A DNA stretch of 21,452 nucleotides from a virus, in the IMG/VR virus record IMGVR_UViG_3300027747_001048, positions 1 through 21,452 of that record. The stretch is one strand, 5' to 3'. This document shows positions 6,688-21,452 of this stretch, one piece after another. The position numbers and the translations under genes are program-made. Below the pieces are notes generated by a model. The model did no database searches. It saw only the letters and a program-made list of their open reading frames with translations, and was not told the origin of the DNA. Each line of letters opens with the position of its first letter. Position 1 is the first letter of the stretch.

Positions 6688-6716
6688 AAACCCGTTCCTG
6701 CATTTTGTAAAAAAAT

Positions 6717-6751
6717 CTTCCGATTTAGGCGGAAAGGCTATTTTATTTTTT
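6717..6751 (+). terminator. Weak candidate terminator after the late block
   Basis: CTTCCG at 6717-6722 can pair with CGGAAAG at 6730-6736, with one bulged A. A U-rich tract (TATTTTATTTTTT, 6739-6751) begins two bases later. The position just after the last lysis-block gene fits an intrinsic terminator. The stem is short, and the U-rich tract is also part of a box repeated near 20411, so it may have another role. Confidence 0.35.
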
Positions 6752-6755
6752 CCGG
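6733..6755 (+). promoter_or_regulatory. Repeated AAAGGCTATTTT box, copy 1
   Basis: This 23-base stretch matches 20411-20433 with only two differences. Both copies lie 75-83 bases before the ATG of a gene that follows a non-coding gap. A small hairpin follows (GGGGGT 6759-6764 with ACTCCC 6770-6775, one G-U pair), then a purine-rich site (GGAAAGGA, 6792-6799). No standard -35/-10 pair is evident. It may be a promoter element, a protein-binding site or a terminator tract. Confidence 0.45.
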
Positions 6756-6807
6756 ATAGGGGGTAAAAAACTCCCAGGCCAACGAGCCAACGGAAAGGAC
6801 TTTGACC

Positions 6808-7209
6808 ATGACCATCGAATTGAACATCCCCGAAACCGCCGCCGAGTGGAACGCGATCATCCTTGGCGAACTGGCCGCTGAGTTTGGCGAGAGCCACATT
6901 GTCACCCGCGCTGCCAAGCGCATCGCCGCCAAAGGCTTTGAACTGCTTGAAGTGCAGAAGACTAGCGGCATGCGGGAAGGCTTCAACTGGGGCCGCTCCT
7001 CGCATGGCGAGCGCCGTGTGACGCTGCGCCATATTAACTTTGCGCACCCCGAAAATCCTGGCGAAGCCATGGCGGTTATCGCGGTGAGCCAGACCATCAA
7101 CTACACACAGTGCAACCCATACGACCGCGCCCCCAAGCACAACGGCATCGAACAGTGGACGCTTCAGGCCAAGGACGACGCAAAAACCGCCCTGGGGTGG
7201 GCGGCATGA
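6808..7209 (+). CDS. Conserved-type phage hypothetical protein
   Basis: A 133-aa soluble protein, not recognised. It has an acidic helical start (MTIELNIPETAAEWNAIILGELAAEFG), a central GFNWGRSSHGERRVTL segment and a C-terminal NPYDRAPKHNGIEQWTLQAKDD. I chose ATG 6808 because GGAAAGGA at 6792-6799 is suitably spaced; a TTG two codons earlier is less likely. It is the first gene after a 120-base leader with a repeated box, so it probably opens a transcription unit. The end overlaps the next start (ATGA). Confidence 0.62.
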   Translation: MTIELNIPETAAEWNAIILGELAAEFGESHIVTRAAKRIAAKGFELLEVQKTSGMREGFNWGRSSHGERRVTLRHINFAHPENPGEAMAVIAVSQTINYTQCNPYDRAPKHNGIEQWTLQAKDDAKTALGWAA

Positions 7210-17147: not shown

Positions 17148-17428
17148 TGGATTGATTTACCTGTGGGAAATTAAGTAATCCCCCACAGGTAAATCTTTGA
17201 AAACACTAATTTCCCCATCTTCCCATTTTCCCACATAGAGACCTTTTATACGTCTCGCGTATCACATGATTTCCATCACGCGTAATGGTTTGGTTTTCGA
17301 ACCCCCCCCTCTGTGGGAAAATGGGAAAATGGGAAAATAAAAGAAAAAACAACAAACACATACACTTAGACCCAACTTGACTTCCCACACATTTTCCCAC
17401 GTCAATGGTTTTTTACAGGAGAAAAAAA
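17148..17428. other. Non-coding iteron/inverted-repeat region, candidate replication origin
   Basis: The 281 bases between the primase-helicase and the next gene are AT-rich and carry repeats of TGTGGGAAA and ATGGGAAA. TGTGGGAAAATGGG and its extension to 22 bases at 17312-17333 is inverted at 17214-17235 with one mismatch, 76 bases apart. A related minus-oriented copy lies at 17382-17400, and the core also occurs in the perfect 14-base arms at 17154-17195. There is a run of eight C at 17302-17309. The layout (iterons, dyads, AT-rich DNA, primase beside it) fits an origin. A partition site or terminator cluster is the alternative. Confidence 0.55.
17154..17195. repeat. Perfect 14-bp inverted repeat after the primase-helicase gene
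   Basis: GATTTACCTGTGGG (17154-17167) and CCCACAGGTAAATC (17182-17195) are exact inverse copies around a 14-base loop. It begins six bases after the stop codon. Only three T follow, so it would be a poor intrinsic terminator despite the strong stem. Its arms share TGTGGGAAA with repeats farther right, tying it to the origin candidate. Confidence 0.75.
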
Positions 17429-17806: not shown

Positions 17807-17847
17807 GGCAAAAGTAAAAATAATTTGTTCGATGGACGCTTTTTGGG

Positions 17848-17875
17848 TTGCATGGTTTTTTGACGGGGCTTAAAA
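17848..17875 (+). promoter_or_regulatory. Promoter of leader A
   Basis: TTGCAT (17848-17853) and TTAAAA (17870-17875) are separated by 16 bases, exactly as in leader B. The AT-rich block upstream could act as an UP element. A TTTTTTGACGGGGC box fills the spacer. Conservation of both hexamers and spacing in two copies is the main support. Confidence 0.6.
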
Positions 17876-17883
17876 GGGTTTCA

Positions 17884-17905
17884 GGCGGACGGATTGGCCG
17901 ACGCC
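17884..17905 (+). repeat. Leader A hairpin
   Basis: GGCG (17884-17887) pairs with CGCC (17902-17905), and CGG (17890-17892) with CCG (17898-17900) inside, giving a stem with an internal loop. It is weaker than the hairpins of the other leaders but holds the same place, between promoter and ribosome-binding site. Confidence 0.45.
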
Positions 17906-17926
17906 ACAAGACGGGGACTGAGACCG

Positions 17927-18127
17927 ATGACCAAAGAAGATTTCCACCGCCAGCACGACGAGGCGTATGAGCAGCGCGAAGCTATCTGGGCGCAATACGC
18001 CACGGCGACCTGGGACCGGATTGCGGACCTGGGCGACAGCGCCCGGGCGCTGACCGCCAAGATGGCGAAGCTGGAGCGGGATTACCACGCGGCGCTGGCC
18101 GCACGGGCGGGGATCAAGGCGCAATGA
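17927..18127 (+). CDS. Small helical early protein
   Basis: A 66-aa charged helical protein (MTKEDFHRQHDEAYEQREAI, then LTAKMAKLERDYHAALAARAG), not recognised, with coiled-coil character. ATG 17927 is chosen because it lies at the end of the repeated leader, in the same place as the start at 18485; a longer frame from 17894 would begin inside the leader hairpin. It overlaps the next gene (ATGA). Confidence 0.6.
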   Translation: MTKEDFHRQHDEAYEQREAIWAQYATATWDRIADLGDSARALTAKMAKLERDYHAALAARAGIKAQ

Positions 18128-18381
18128 TTCTCCCCACGATCCACATGAACGGCACCAGCGCGCGGGCTTTGCTGGAAGGCTACTGCGATGCCATCTCGGC
18201 AATCCACGACGCTCTCGACGCTCTGGCACGGGCCGCGCCCAATGGCCGGGACTATTACCCGCAGGGGCCGGACACATGCGCCCTGGCCGATGCCGAGCAT
18301 GATGCCCGCAAGCGGGCATTGGTCGGCGTGTTGCAAGAATTGCAGGTTTTGGCGGAGCATGTCGCAGACCGGCAAAAATAA
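18124..18381 (+). CDS. Conserved phage-type hypothetical protein
   Basis: An 85-aa protein with a pattern I recall from many phages of Proteobacteria: PTIHMNGTSARALLEGY, DALDALARAAPNGRDYYPQG, then a helical tail ending LAEHVADRQK. Function unknown; the conserved NGT and PNGRDYYPQG motifs suggest a binding surface rather than random helix. It overlaps the previous stop (ATGA). Its last codons run into leader B. Confidence 0.65.
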   Translation: MILPTIHMNGTSARALLEGYCDAISAIHDALDALARAAPNGRDYYPQGPDTCALADAEHDARKRALVGVLQELQVLAEHVADRQK

Positions 18382-18405
18382 TTTGTCGGATGCGCTCTTT
18401 TTGAG

Positions 18406-18433
18406 TTGCATCAACCGTTAATGGGCGTTAAAA
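18406..18433 (+). promoter_or_regulatory. Promoter of leader B
   Basis: TTGCAT (18406-18411) and TTAAAA (18428-18433) with a 16-base spacer, identical hexamers and spacing to leader A although the spacer sequence differs. Transcription would begin near 18440, right at the hairpin, placing the stem at the 5' end of the message. Confidence 0.6.
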
Positions 18434-18442
18434 GGGGTGCAG

Positions 18443-18466
18443 GCGGCGGGATCAACCGACCGCCGC
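18443..18466 (+). repeat. Leader B hairpin
   Basis: GCGGCGG (18443-18449) pairs perfectly with CCGCCGC (18460-18466) around a ten-base loop containing ATCAACCG. AGGAAAGGAACTAG follows as the ribosome-binding site. The AATCAACCG loop theme recurs in the hairpin at 18694-18715. Confidence 0.65.
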
Positions 18467-18484
18467 AGGAAAGGAACTAGGACG

Positions 18485-18649
18485 ATGACCGAATACCAGA
18501 TTGAACTGAGCGTCGAAGCCAAGATGAATTCCTTGGATCGGGCTTTTATGAACCCGGCCAATAAAATGACTCAAGCGGATTACGACGCGGAGGTGAAGAA
18601 ACTCAACCGCTGGGCAAACGCTCAAATGGCCCGTCGGACAAAGGTCTGA
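18485..18649 (+). CDS. Small early protein
   Basis: A 54-aa protein, not recognised (MTEYQIELSVEAKMNSLDRA, then TQADYDAEVKKLNRWANAQM and a basic end). ATG 18485 is preceded by GGAAAGGA (18468-18475) and sits at the end of leader B; a longer frame from 18437 would begin inside the hairpin. Small size and its own promoter-like leader fit an early host-takeover protein, but that is inference. An 18-bp inverted repeat begins at the base after its stop. Confidence 0.6.
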   Translation: MTEYQIELSVEAKMNSLDRAFMNPANKMTQADYDAEVKKLNRWANAQMARRTKV

Positions 18650-18697
18650 CCGGTCACTGGATGCGCCGCCCCACACGGAGGCGCATCCAGTGACCGG
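18650..18697 (+). repeat. Perfect 18-bp inverted repeat
   Basis: CCGGTCACTGGATGCGCC (18650-18667) and its exact inverse copy (18680-18697) flank a 12-base loop. The left arm starts right after a stop codon. No U run follows, so it is not a standard terminator. The last four bases of the right arm also form the first four of the next hairpin, so the two folds exclude each other. Confidence 0.85.
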
Positions 18698-19068: not shown

Positions 19069-19427
19069 CCATCCAAAACGGACGCACCCGCCGCACGCGG
19101 CAAAAGCCGAACGCGCGATGGGATGCTTACGACAATCTCCCGCCGCTCACCCGTCAAGCGCTGCAGGAAGGGCCGCAGCAATGGTGCGACATCGTGGTGG
19201 CCAAGACCATCAAACAGTTGCGCAAGCAGCACCCACTGCTGTCTATGAACAGCATCGACAACATTGCCGCTCGCATGGTGCAGGGCTGGCACCTCGAAGA
19301 CATTGCAGAAGCGCGTGCGTGGCAGCCTCCGCGCAAACCCTTCCAACGGAAATTGCCATATCCGATTCCGTCGCCGCACATCGCCGCCGACGCCACCATG
19401 CAAATGAGCGGGAGGACACCAGCATGA
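19065..19427 (+). CDS. Basic hypothetical protein, possibly DUF6525-like
   Basis: A 120-aa basic protein. The segment RWDAYDNLPPLTRQALQEGPQQW (from about residue 18) recalls short DUF6525-type phage proteins with a W/F-D-x-L-P-P-x-x-R pattern. The middle is helical (VVAKTIKQLRKQHPLLSMNSIDNIAARMV) and the C-terminus is Pro-rich. A nucleic-acid or regulatory role is plausible but not shown. Start and stop overlap neighbours as ATGA. Confidence 0.5.
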   Translation: MTIQNGRTRRTRQKPNARWDAYDNLPPLTRQALQEGPQQWCDIVVAKTIKQLRKQHPLLSMNSIDNIAARMVQGWHLEDIAEARAWQPPRKPFQRKLPYPIPSPHIAADATMQMSGRTPA

Positions 19428-19732
19428 GCAACGCACCAGTGCCAAATTGGTTTGAATGCGAATACGTTATGATTGACGGCGAGGTGGTGCGCATCGAGCC
19501 GAGAACGAGAGATCAGCAAAAGAAGGAATTCCGAAAACTGCTCGACGACACGGGCGTCTCTATCGCGTGGCTGGCCAAAGCCACCGGACGCAGCAAGGGC
19601 GCATTCCGGCGATGGCTGGATGGCAGCGCCCAACCGCCAGAGGAGCTTTGGGAATGGCTGGAAGAACGCGCCGACAACCCGCCGCCGACCTTTGAACCCG
19701 ACCCACGCAAGAAAAAGAAGAATTCGCCATGA
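19424..19732 (+). CDS. HTH-type DNA-binding protein
   Basis: A 102-aa protein with an N-terminal beta-like part (NWFECEYVMIDGEVVRIEP), an XRE-like helix-turn-helix at about 35-68 (LLDDTGVSIAWLAKATGRSK, then GAFRRWLDGSAQPP), and a basic tail (DPRKKKKNSP). Probably a small transcription regulator. ATG 19424 overlaps the preceding stop; a much longer frame upstream is a shadow of the previous two genes. The stop overlaps the next regulator start (ATGA), so two DNA-binding proteins are made together. Confidence 0.65.
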   Translation: MSNAPVPNWFECEYVMIDGEVVRIEPRTRDQQKKEFRKLLDDTGVSIAWLAKATGRSKGAFRRWLDGSAQPPEELWEWLEERADNPPPTFEPDPRKKKKNSP

Positions 19733-20394
19733 CCACGCCGATTAAATATCCCGAAATCTATGACGAAATTCGGCGCTGCCCGAATGAGCCGCCCGCATCC
19801 ATCGCCAAGCGCCTGGGCTTTGAGGCGAGAACCGTCGGGCATGTCCGTGCCCGAATGGTTAAGGCGGGCGTGGTGGAAAACATTTTCCACAAAAACGTCA
19901 TTGCGCACCCGGAAATTTATAACGCGATCCGCGAAAATCCCAACGAAATGCCTGCGTCCATCGCCAAGCGCCTGGGCGTTGCGCCACGTCTCGTTTCCCA
20001 TGTGCGGGGCAGGATGATCGCCAACGGCGTGGTGCAAAACATCTCAATCCGAAACCTCACGCCCATCACCGACGACGAGCGAACGGTCATCCTGGCGCTG
20101 CGCGAGCGCGGATTCTCTTATCCCGCCATCGGGCAGAAAATGGGACGCAGCAAAGGCGCGATTGAACGTCTGTGCAACAACGCTCGCGACGCGGGGGAGC
20201 TAAGGCCAATTGTTTATCAGCCCCGCGAGGCAGTGCAGCGCGCCATCGAAATGGTTGAAAAGCGCCCACTGCCCAGGCTTGGCTTGAACATGACGGAATC
20301 GGAGGAGCGCGCTGTGGCATCGCTTCAAAATTCCCTGCGGAACAAAACCAAGTTGGAACTGCTCACCATGGTGCGGGGCCGGATGCGAAAATAA
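19729..20394 (+). CDS. Triple-HTH regulator with an internal duplication
   Basis: A 221-aa protein with two near-identical winged-helix-like repeats: residues 8-52 (YPEIYDEIRRCPNEPPASIA, KRLGFEARTVGHVRARMVKA) and 61-105 (HPEIYNAIRENPNEMPASIA, KRLGVAPRLVSHVRGRMIAN). A third helix-turn-helix lies at about 114-155 (TDDERTVILALRERGFSYPA, IGQKMGRSKGAIERLCNNAR). The C-terminal 60 residues are helical and basic. Three DNA-binding units suggest recognition of a repeated or long site, such as the leader or iteron repeats here; that link is inference. It starts by ATGA overlap with the HTH gene before it. Confidence 0.68.
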   Translation: MTTPIKYPEIYDEIRRCPNEPPASIAKRLGFEARTVGHVRARMVKAGVVENIFHKNVIAHPEIYNAIRENPNEMPASIAKRLGVAPRLVSHVRGRMIANGVVQNISIRNLTPITDDERTVILALRERGFSYPAIGQKMGRSKGAIERLCNNARDAGELRPIVYQPREAVQRAIEMVEKRPLPRLGLNMTESEERAVASLQNSLRNKTKLELLTMVRGRMRK

Positions 20395-20410
20395 ATCGAG
20401 AAAAATGGCG

Positions 20411-20433
20411 AAAGGCTATTTTCTTTTTTGCGG
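20411..20433 (+). promoter_or_regulatory. Repeated AAAGGCTATTTT box, copy 2
   Basis: This stretch matches 6733-6755 at 21 of 23 positions and lies 83 bases before the ATG at 20494. CGGG-AA-CCCG (20431-20440) and GTTAAAAC follow, then a TTTTTGACGG box and the leader hairpin. It probably belongs to the promoter region of the 20494 gene. Confidence 0.45.
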
Positions 20434-20455
20434 GAACCCGTTAAAACATTTTTGA

Positions 20456-20473
20456 CGGCGCGATGAGGCGCCG
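20456..20473 (+). repeat. Leader hairpin before the 20494 gene
   Basis: CGGCGC (20456-20461) pairs with GCGCCG (20468-20473) around loop GATGAG. It is followed by CAGAGAAACGGAGAG. The hairpin at 21314-21331 has the same size, a GATGAT loop and the same CAGAGAAA flank, but a different stem base pair. Confidence 0.7.
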
Positions 20474-20493
20474 CAGAGAAACGGAGAGAGAAC

Positions 20494-20877
20494 ATGAACA
20501 ACAATTGGGAAACACAATATGACGCGGTGGTTCTGCATGCTTGGGAGCAGTGGACGCAGAACGGTCTTGGCCTCGACACCGAGGATTGTGCGCAAACCAT
20601 CAAAAGCGTGCAAAACGCCGCGACCAACGCATGGCAGGACGGCATGGCGGACGATCAATGGGTTTACGCCACCATACGGCTGCTGAACGGCAAAACGATG
20701 CCAGCCTATTACATCACCCACACTGACGACGCGGACGAAGAGCATCAGCTTTACGGCGCATGGGACGCGCCCAGCCCCGAGGATGCCATCGCGCAAATGC
20801 TGACGGAAAGCCAAGGCATGGACGATGGCCGCTGGACCGCTCGCGAGGTGACCCGCAAAAGCGACGTGATTTCGTAA
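20494..20877 (+). CDS. Hypothetical early protein
   Basis: A 127-aa acidic protein, not recognised. Features include WETQYDAVVLHAWEQWTQNG, a beta-like QWVYATIRLLNGKTMPAYYI, then THTDDADEEHQLYGAW and SPEDAIAQMLTESQG. No signal peptide or membrane span. ATG 20494 has GGAGAGAG (20483-20490) just upstream and lies behind a leader hairpin, so it likely has its own promoter. Confidence 0.6.
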   Translation: MNNNWETQYDAVVLHAWEQWTQNGLGLDTEDCAQTIKSVQNAATNAWQDGMADDQWVYATIRLLNGKTMPAYYITHTDDADEEHQLYGAWDAPSPEDAIAQMLTESQGMDDGRWTAREVTRKSDVIS

Positions 20878-21193: not shown

Positions 21194-21261
21194 CGCCCGT
21201 CAAAAATTAACCGGAATCCGGTTAAGTATTTCCCACCTAAAAAATCCGCGCCCGTCAAAAA
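21194..21261 (+). repeat. Direct repeat CGCCCGTCAAAAA
   Basis: Exact copies at 21194-21206 and 21249-21261 lie 55 bases apart, close to five helical turns, and flank the 19-base palindrome. Similar boxes in inverse orientation (TTTTTGACGG) occur near 17856 and 20449. Probable protein-binding sites. Confidence 0.5.
21207..21225. promoter_or_regulatory. 19-base perfect palindrome
   Basis: TTAACCGGA and TCCGGTTAA flank a single A. It sits in the 160-base gap before the last gene, between two copies of CGCCCGTCAAAAA. No U run follows, so an operator is more likely than a terminator. Confidence 0.55.
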
Positions 21262-21264
21262 ATA

Positions 21265-21292
21265 TTGGACAAGGGGGTTGGCGCGGTAAAAA
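21265..21292 (+). promoter_or_regulatory. Promoter of the last leader
   Basis: TTGGAC (21265-21270) and TAAAAA (21287-21292) are 16 bases apart, the same spacing as in leaders A and B. The hairpin follows about 20 bases later. The -35 is close to the usual consensus; the -10 is poor. Confidence 0.5.
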
Positions 21293-21313
21293 AAACCCTG
21301 TAAAAAAATCGGG

Positions 21314-21331
21314 CGGGGCGATGATGCCCCG
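21314..21331 (+). repeat. Leader hairpin before the last gene
   Basis: CGGGGC (21314-21319) pairs with GCCCCG (21326-21331) around GATGAT. CAGAGAAAGGAAC follows as the ribosome-binding site. Compared with the 20456 hairpin, the third/fourth stem position changes on both arms so that pairing is kept. Confidence 0.7.
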
Positions 21332-21351
21332 CAGAGAAAGGAACTAAAAAA

Positions 21352-21452
21352 ATGGCACCGCTTCCCACCCGCATCGCCGCCACCCAGGCCGCTCCCGCAG
21401 CCAAGCACCAGCCCTCGCCCCAGCAAATTGCGGTTTACGACTGGACCAGCAA
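21352..21452 (+). CDS. 5' end of a probable helicase or ATPase gene (partial)
   Basis: ATG 21352 follows GAAAGGAAC (21336-21344) and opens a frame running off the window: MAPLPTRIAATQAAPAAKHQ, then PSPQQIAVYDWTS. The P-S-x-Q-Q-x-A-V-x-D-W pattern is typical just before Walker A of phage superfamily 1 helicases and related ATPases. The Walker motif itself lies outside the window, so the assignment is tentative. Confidence 0.5.
   Translation, partial: MAPLPTRIAATQAAPAAKHQPSPQQIAVYDWTS

Follow-up and report, generated by a model that had tools for sequence, protein, structure and literature searches.

The locus raises the question of why two stretches of control sequence should be so alike in front of two genes that are not. 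The window analysed here is an entire viral record of 21,452 bp, and on its plus strand leader A (17816-17926) and leader B (18374-18484), each 111 nt long, both run into ATGACC. Local alignment of the two leaders gave a score of 108, against a mean of 20.5 (sd 3.4, maximum 39) for 1000 dinucleotide-shuffled pairs, and BLAST returned 73% identity over 117 nt. The 66-aa protein (MTKEDFHR..., gene at 17927-18127, + strand) behind leader A and the 54-aa protein (MTEYQIEL..., 18485-18649, +) behind leader B are unrelated, with a top match of 13 aa at E=0.10. The initial annotation had described such a pair within 17816-18484, sharing an AT-rich block, TTGCAT and TTAAAA elements, a GC hairpin, a purine-rich ribosome site and a common end, and had noted that the proteins behind them were unlike; both points were confirmed, and leaders 73% identical ahead of unrelated proteins support its proposal that control DNA and not genes had been duplicated. 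An 85-aa gene (MILPTIHM..., 18124-18381, +) is distal in the leader A unit and has its stop codon inside the AT block of leader B. Inverted repeats were also observed in this part of the window: one of 21 bp (18650-18697; 95% complementary, 6-nt loop, no T run) lies directly 3' of the 54-aa gene, with similar sequence at the matching place in the related phage contig G001, and two others, both strong, occupy the AT-rich gap 3' of the primase gene (17154-17195, with 20-nt arms, and 17209-17338, with 30-nt arms 70 nt apart).

The leaders share one layout, in which an AT block is followed by a -35 element, 17 nt and TANANN; some 5-6 nt further on come, in many cases, CAGGC, then a hairpin, the ribosome site and the start codon. 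Leader A comprises an AT block at 17816-17827, a -35 element TTGCAT at 17848-17853, a -10 element TAAAAG at 17871-17876, a predicted +1 at ~17883 and a hairpin at ~17884-17905, followed by the ribosome site and ATGACC; the corresponding elements of leader B lie at 18374-18385, 18406-18411 (TTGCAT), 18429-18434 (TAAAAG), ~18441 and 18442-18464, again followed by the ribosome site and ATGACC. The AT block resembles AAAAATAATTT and is located 20-21 nt upstream of the -35 element in clear cases. Of 14 divergent leaders, 13 have TTG upstream of TANANN at a spacing of exactly 17 nt, compared with 0-2 leaders at every other spacing between 11 and 25; the promoter elements are therefore better written TTGCAT-17-TAAAAG than TTGCAT-16-TTAAAA, as first annotated, which named sequences that are present with a less suitable spacing. 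With transcription expected to start ~7 nt after the -10 element, the predicted RNA would begin at the A of CAGGC (~17883 and ~18441), one nucleotide from the values given in the initial annotation. Leaders end in GGAAAGGAACTAGGACG or GGATAACTCAG ahead of ATGACC, and ATGACC itself follows 23 of 36 leaders, whereas in three genomes scanned throughout it opens 5-6 of 60-67 ORFs that start with ATG, some leader genes being counted among these.

The leaders were not called as promoters in a strict sigma-70 scan because their -10 elements are weak; the consensus used was that of E. coli and may differ from that of the host. No sigma-70 region 2 gene was found in G000, G001, G003 or G004, and a search for a single-subunit phage RNA polymerase gave no match, with the control of that search failing as well. 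The form of the promoter together with the lack of a sigma-70 region 2 gene suggests that the host polymerase may transcribe the leaders. Their conservation points to a reused promoter, and their location and the size of the genes behind them to probable early timing and accessory function.

Folding potential along the leaders peaks at the predicted +1, where the most stable 24-nt window starts (mean -6.95 kcal/mol). The stems vary between leaders in both sequence and length (GGCGGCGG, CGGCGC, CGGGGC, GCGGGGG, CAGGC and GGGC), yet within a leader the two arms are matched: across 14 distinct leaders, pairing of each leader's own arms totalled -142.4 kcal/mol, compared with about -99 kcal/mol for mixed arms, and none of 20,000 arm permutations reached the native value. 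The split point between arms had come from the native fold, and the arm-matching test was redone on shuffled sets; the native-minus-mixed gap was -43.3 in the real leaders and -7.3 (sd 7.7, lowest -31.6) in 200 shuffled sets, none of which reached it. The 5' hairpin is not universal, since in many leaders of a sister group it has only 3 bp and for two leaders, L051a and L052p, no stable 5' hairpin was predicted. Within the leader the hairpin comes after the promoter and before the purine-rich ribosome site, where its most likely role would be to stabilise the mRNA and to isolate the ribosome site from the following gene. This proposed protection of mRNA and shielding of ribosome sites draws on what is generally known of 5' stem-loops. 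The hairpin was rejected as a terminator, as no T run is present 3' of it, and on the + strand no terminator was called at either leader A or leader B.

With simple repeat and BLAST searches, only the two copies A and B were found in the window, and profile models were needed for the other three. The window contains at least five leaders, beginning at ~6710, 17816, 18374, 20389 and 21241, so that the initial annotation was right about the pair and too low in its count, and the first outcome that it named as refuting, a lack of other copies in the genome, did not arise. A profile whose training leaders came solely from the sister group and L051, and thus from none of the window, G001 or L025, matched the window at 6732-6787 (leader I, E 9.8e-4) and 20400-20477 (leader IV, E 1.6e-4), and matched leader A weakly (E 0.13). 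Leader I was also matched at E 4.1e-5 by a model built without the window leaders, a profile lacking any A or B copies recovered A at E 0.0015 and B at E 0.0058, and a profile of window-type leaders recovered leader V at 21295-21353 (E 0.0011), although it was not a seed. Leader I (6710-6807, +) has a -35 region of poly-T type, a -10 element TAAAAA at 6764-6769 and a small hairpin at ~6777-6788, then ATGACC, and precedes a 133-aa gene (MTIELN..., 6808-7209, +). Leader IV (20389-20493, +; -10 element TAAAAC at 20442-20447, hairpin ~20454-20476) precedes a 127-aa gene (MNNNWETQYD..., 20494-20877, +), and leader V (21241-21351, +; hairpin ~21313-21332) precedes the start of a UvrD-type helicase gene (21352-21452, +), which is cut by the contig end and whole in G001. 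Rfam gave no match above the family gathering score anywhere in the window.

Searches with leader patterns and with the small genes, the primase and a conserved 120-aa gene brought up relatives, and similar leaders are present in about 12 other metagenomic phage contigs. A second leader type, with the same plan and a poly-T -35 region, occurs in the sister group (L037, L039, L041, L043-L050). In G001, G003 and G004 (59.8, 53.8 and 52.5 kb) clear leaders are present only in the early-gene part and none in the structural part. A further phage is L051 (9600-13390), where about five leaders of the TTGCGG-17-TACAAG type (GGAGATAACTCAGATGACC) within 3.8 kb each precede a different small gene. The leader pattern had two matches in bacterial genomes (Chitinophagaceae and Melghiribacillus), both judged to be due to chance, so that prophages pointed to no host, and the primase search of bacterial genomes found nothing.

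G001 encodes a contractile tail (sheath gene), and nothing in G003 or G004 matches its terminase, portal, sheath or baseplate proteins. Both of these contigs nevertheless have members of the leader family and share early genes with the window, among them one for a 337-aa protein (80-85%), so that different phage types have the module and early genes in common. A separate observation in G001 (L059:18796-19716) is a match to the beta-glucosyl-HMC-alpha-glucosyltransferase PHROG (3e-42), which hints at modified DNA. Judged by the sister-group terminase, the nearest isolates are the roseophages CRP-901 and CRP-902 (41-42%).

When related phages were compared, leaders were 82-97% identical up to ATGACC, and the sequence beyond it was unrelated at three of the window's five slots and, for two sister-group slots, in most of the pairs. 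Between the window and G001 the leaders are 88% (slot I), 88% (A) and 94% (B) identical, while the three successive 50-nt bins after ATGACC fall to 42/42/32%, 28/26/24% and 22/26/22%, respectively. The likeness covers the hairpin, the ribosome site and the second codon and ends exactly at ATGACC in the swapped slots. The fixed slots IV and V, where the gene is conserved between the window and G001 (90-98%), provide a built-in control. Behind leader I, G001 carries an unrelated 111-aa gene, and unrelated genes replace the 54-aa gene behind leader B; the homologue of the 66-aa gene is the second gene in G001 and L025, where a different gene adjoins the leader, and in L045 a leader is directly followed by a homologue of the 85-aa gene that is distal in the window. 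Seven sister-group contigs have, between them, five unrelated first genes at slot 'a', behind leaders that are 82-95% identical, and the second slot is occupied by MPYPDNF, MTEYLF, MTNTEL or MLINHN. One gene family (MTD..YANKLGY..PYE) is found behind leaders in three phages, L037 (L037a), G001 (g1I) and L051 (L051e).

Clustering of the first genes using BLASTP, with L063x omitted owing to a mis-set start, gave 26 families for 36 leaders, some of which come from related phages, so that leader counts do not represent independent events. Searches of Pfam, PHROGs and PADLOC returned almost nothing for the genes behind leaders. One such gene (L042:3492-4304) encodes a 270-aa DUF3489 protein, whose C-terminal part gives a weak PADLOC match (2e-5) to a CARF-associated model. 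Comparison of these phages thus shows gene exchange behind a fixed leader. The initial annotation had suggested a moveable or copied early-expression cassette; the copying is upheld and the mobility is not, as it is the leaders that look fixed and the genes behind them that move.

The borders of the exchanged sequence were examined at several slots. In G001 an 88-aa gene is present between leader A and the homologue of the window's first gene, with the two starts 296 bp apart and preceded by near-identical sequence (GACGGGACTAGCACCATGACC and AAAGGAACTAGCACCATGACC), and on each side of this 296-bp gene unit is a direct repeat, the two being near-identical and ending ACTAGCACCATGACC. At leader A the window has only one repeat and a single such start, which would fit either a unit that has been lost or one that had yet to be gained. 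In L049, L046 and L050 a gene unit separates the hairpin from the ribosome site belonging to the next gene; its distal joint is (TA)ACTCA and its proximal joint GGATAACTCA, or GGATAACTTA in L050. The start part also precedes inner genes without the promoter (L037, L046, L051 and L052). From the direct repeats, we infer that exchange may proceed via homology at the ribosome site and ATGACC.

Control elements of this general kind have been reported before. In cluster K phages, whose hosts are mycobacteria, SAS and ESAS repeats stand immediately 5' of the start codon in many non-structural genes, which belong to different families, and the repeats are confined to the non-structural half of the genome; some copies have an upstream part with -35 and -10 hexamers 17-18 bp apart and an imperfect inverted repeat of 15-17 bp, other copies consist of the ribosome-site part alone, and the SAS itself is a 13-bp sequence, GGGATAGGAGCCC, with at most 2 changes, located 3-7 bp before the start codon (PMC3203893, PMC11373665). 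The comparison with cluster K made in the initial annotation is apt, in that the leaders likewise precede genes of different families in the non-structural region. As with SAS lacking ESAS, the start part of the leader also occurs without the promoter, and the hexamers are 17 bp apart here too. The sequences, however, are unrelated, with no GGGATAGGAGCCC-type 13-mer in the leaders examined, and the inverted repeat is shorter, variable in sequence and placed after the -10 element. In addition, the leader arms are matched, unlike those of ESAS, which reportedly do not support RNA pairing, and the gene behind a leader changes, whereas ESAS stay with their gene families.

The PeSLs of T4-type phages were reportedly described by Arbiol in 2010 and by Comeau in 2014. 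As presented in PMC4503421, they combine a repeated early promoter with a stem-loop and are tied to the shuffling of small genes (PMC4503421). The leaders resemble PeSLs, so characterised, in their link to small-gene exchange between related phages; unlike these promoter-terminator composites, they have a hairpin downstream of the promoter, where the RNA is predicted to begin, with no T run behind it, and this hairpin joins a conserved ribosome site and ATGACC. In the haloarchaeal virus HGTV-1, most ORFs of one region are preceded by a motif of promoter box plus inverted repeat, proposed to aid shuffling (PMC3950731). Its promoter is of the archaeal TATA type, unlike that of the leaders, and the account of the motif in that source does not extend to gene exchange behind a fixed leader.

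CRP-901 and CRP-902 have a repeated leader of their own, TTGTAATCTGTGACA...GAGAGAGAGGA-ATG, in four copies per genome (L068 4193, 4823, 5442 and 6455; L069 4191, 4823, 5409 and 5958), the copies being nearly identical in their promoter and ribosome-site parts; the MNKFS gene follows leader 3 in CRP-901 and leader 2 in CRP-902, and some copies lie directly 3' of a terminator-like hairpin. This set is analogous to the leaders of the window and unrelated to them in sequence, and the words promoter, intergenic and stem-loop are absent from the paper describing these phages. The initial annotation had stated that no description was known for this type of phage. A search of INPHARED (50,697 phage records), in which no leader match exceeded chance, agrees with that statement, but the kind of element is not new, because related ideas have been described for T4 PeSLs, HGTV-1 and cluster K SAS/ESAS. 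The leaders function like cluster K SAS/ESAS and T4 PeSLs and fit neither definition, because the SAS sequence and the PeSL terminator are missing. What seems new is the matched hairpin at +1, the switch from conserved to unrelated sequence exactly at the start codon and the sharing across phage types.

The leaders are probably copies of a reused early promoter and 5'UTR module behind which small accessory genes are exchanged. Such a module would start with an upstream AT-rich element, followed by a promoter of the host's sigma-70 type (-35, 17 nt, -10), a 5' RNA hairpin and a strong ribosome site, closed in most copies by ATGACC, and would have multiplied within the early regions of a phage group, becoming common to phages whose packaging and tail genes differ. 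At variable slots it would stay in place and a small gene or gene unit would be gained, lost or replaced by recombination, with the repeated ribosome-site and start sequence acting as the short stretch of homology where the pieces join; where a slot is fixed, the module would drive a conserved gene. The leaders may instead be an ordinary set of phage early promoters, kept alike by selection on promoter and ribosome site, with nearby turnover reflecting mosaicism independent of them. Families of near-identical promoters are common in phages, and this possible reading is consistent with the confinement of leaders to the early region of G001, G003 and G004 and with the constant genes served at slots IV and V. 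It fits less well with a likeness that takes in the hairpin, the ribosome site and the second codon and, in swapped slots, breaks off precisely at ATGACC, with gene units flanked by direct repeats of the start region, and with start sequences lacking a promoter before inner genes.

It is unlikely that the inverted repeat is a DNA operator, a site for a phage or host regulator controlling all five leaders as proposed for ESAS. A common operator should keep its sequence, and an RNA hairpin is favoured because the arms match within each leader while the stems differ between leaders. Pointing towards an operator are the position of the dyads at the predicted transcription start, the proteins matching DNA-binding families encoded nearby (19424-20394) and the view that ESAS repeats are likelier protein sites (PMC3203893). 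An actively mobile leader-plus-gene cassette, moved by an enzyme recognising the repeats, is very unlikely: the same module does occur in phages with unrelated packaging and tail genes, and units with a repeat at each end resemble cassettes, but the leaders keep matching positions while the genes change, the joints share short homology only, and an unsystematic look noticed no recombinase adjoining the leaders. Returning to the reused module, a tentative extension is that it serves as a gene-exchange platform, in which the leaders would be fixed docking sites and units of ribosome site, ATGACC and gene would be interchangeable cassettes recombining at the repeated start.

At the level of sequence, the picture is one of phages that change their small early genes and keep their expression, the control module being fixed and repeated and the gene exchangeable. 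The leader offers a probe for collecting the genes that sit behind copies of it; most of these genes belong to no known family here, and host takeover and counter-defence are candidate roles for them. For the RNA, the matching of the hairpin arms yields a clear prediction, and because cultured roseophages have a comparable set of leaders, the idea can be tested. If the leaders do act as an exchange platform, different phage types in one habitat would trade early accessory genes with immediate expression.
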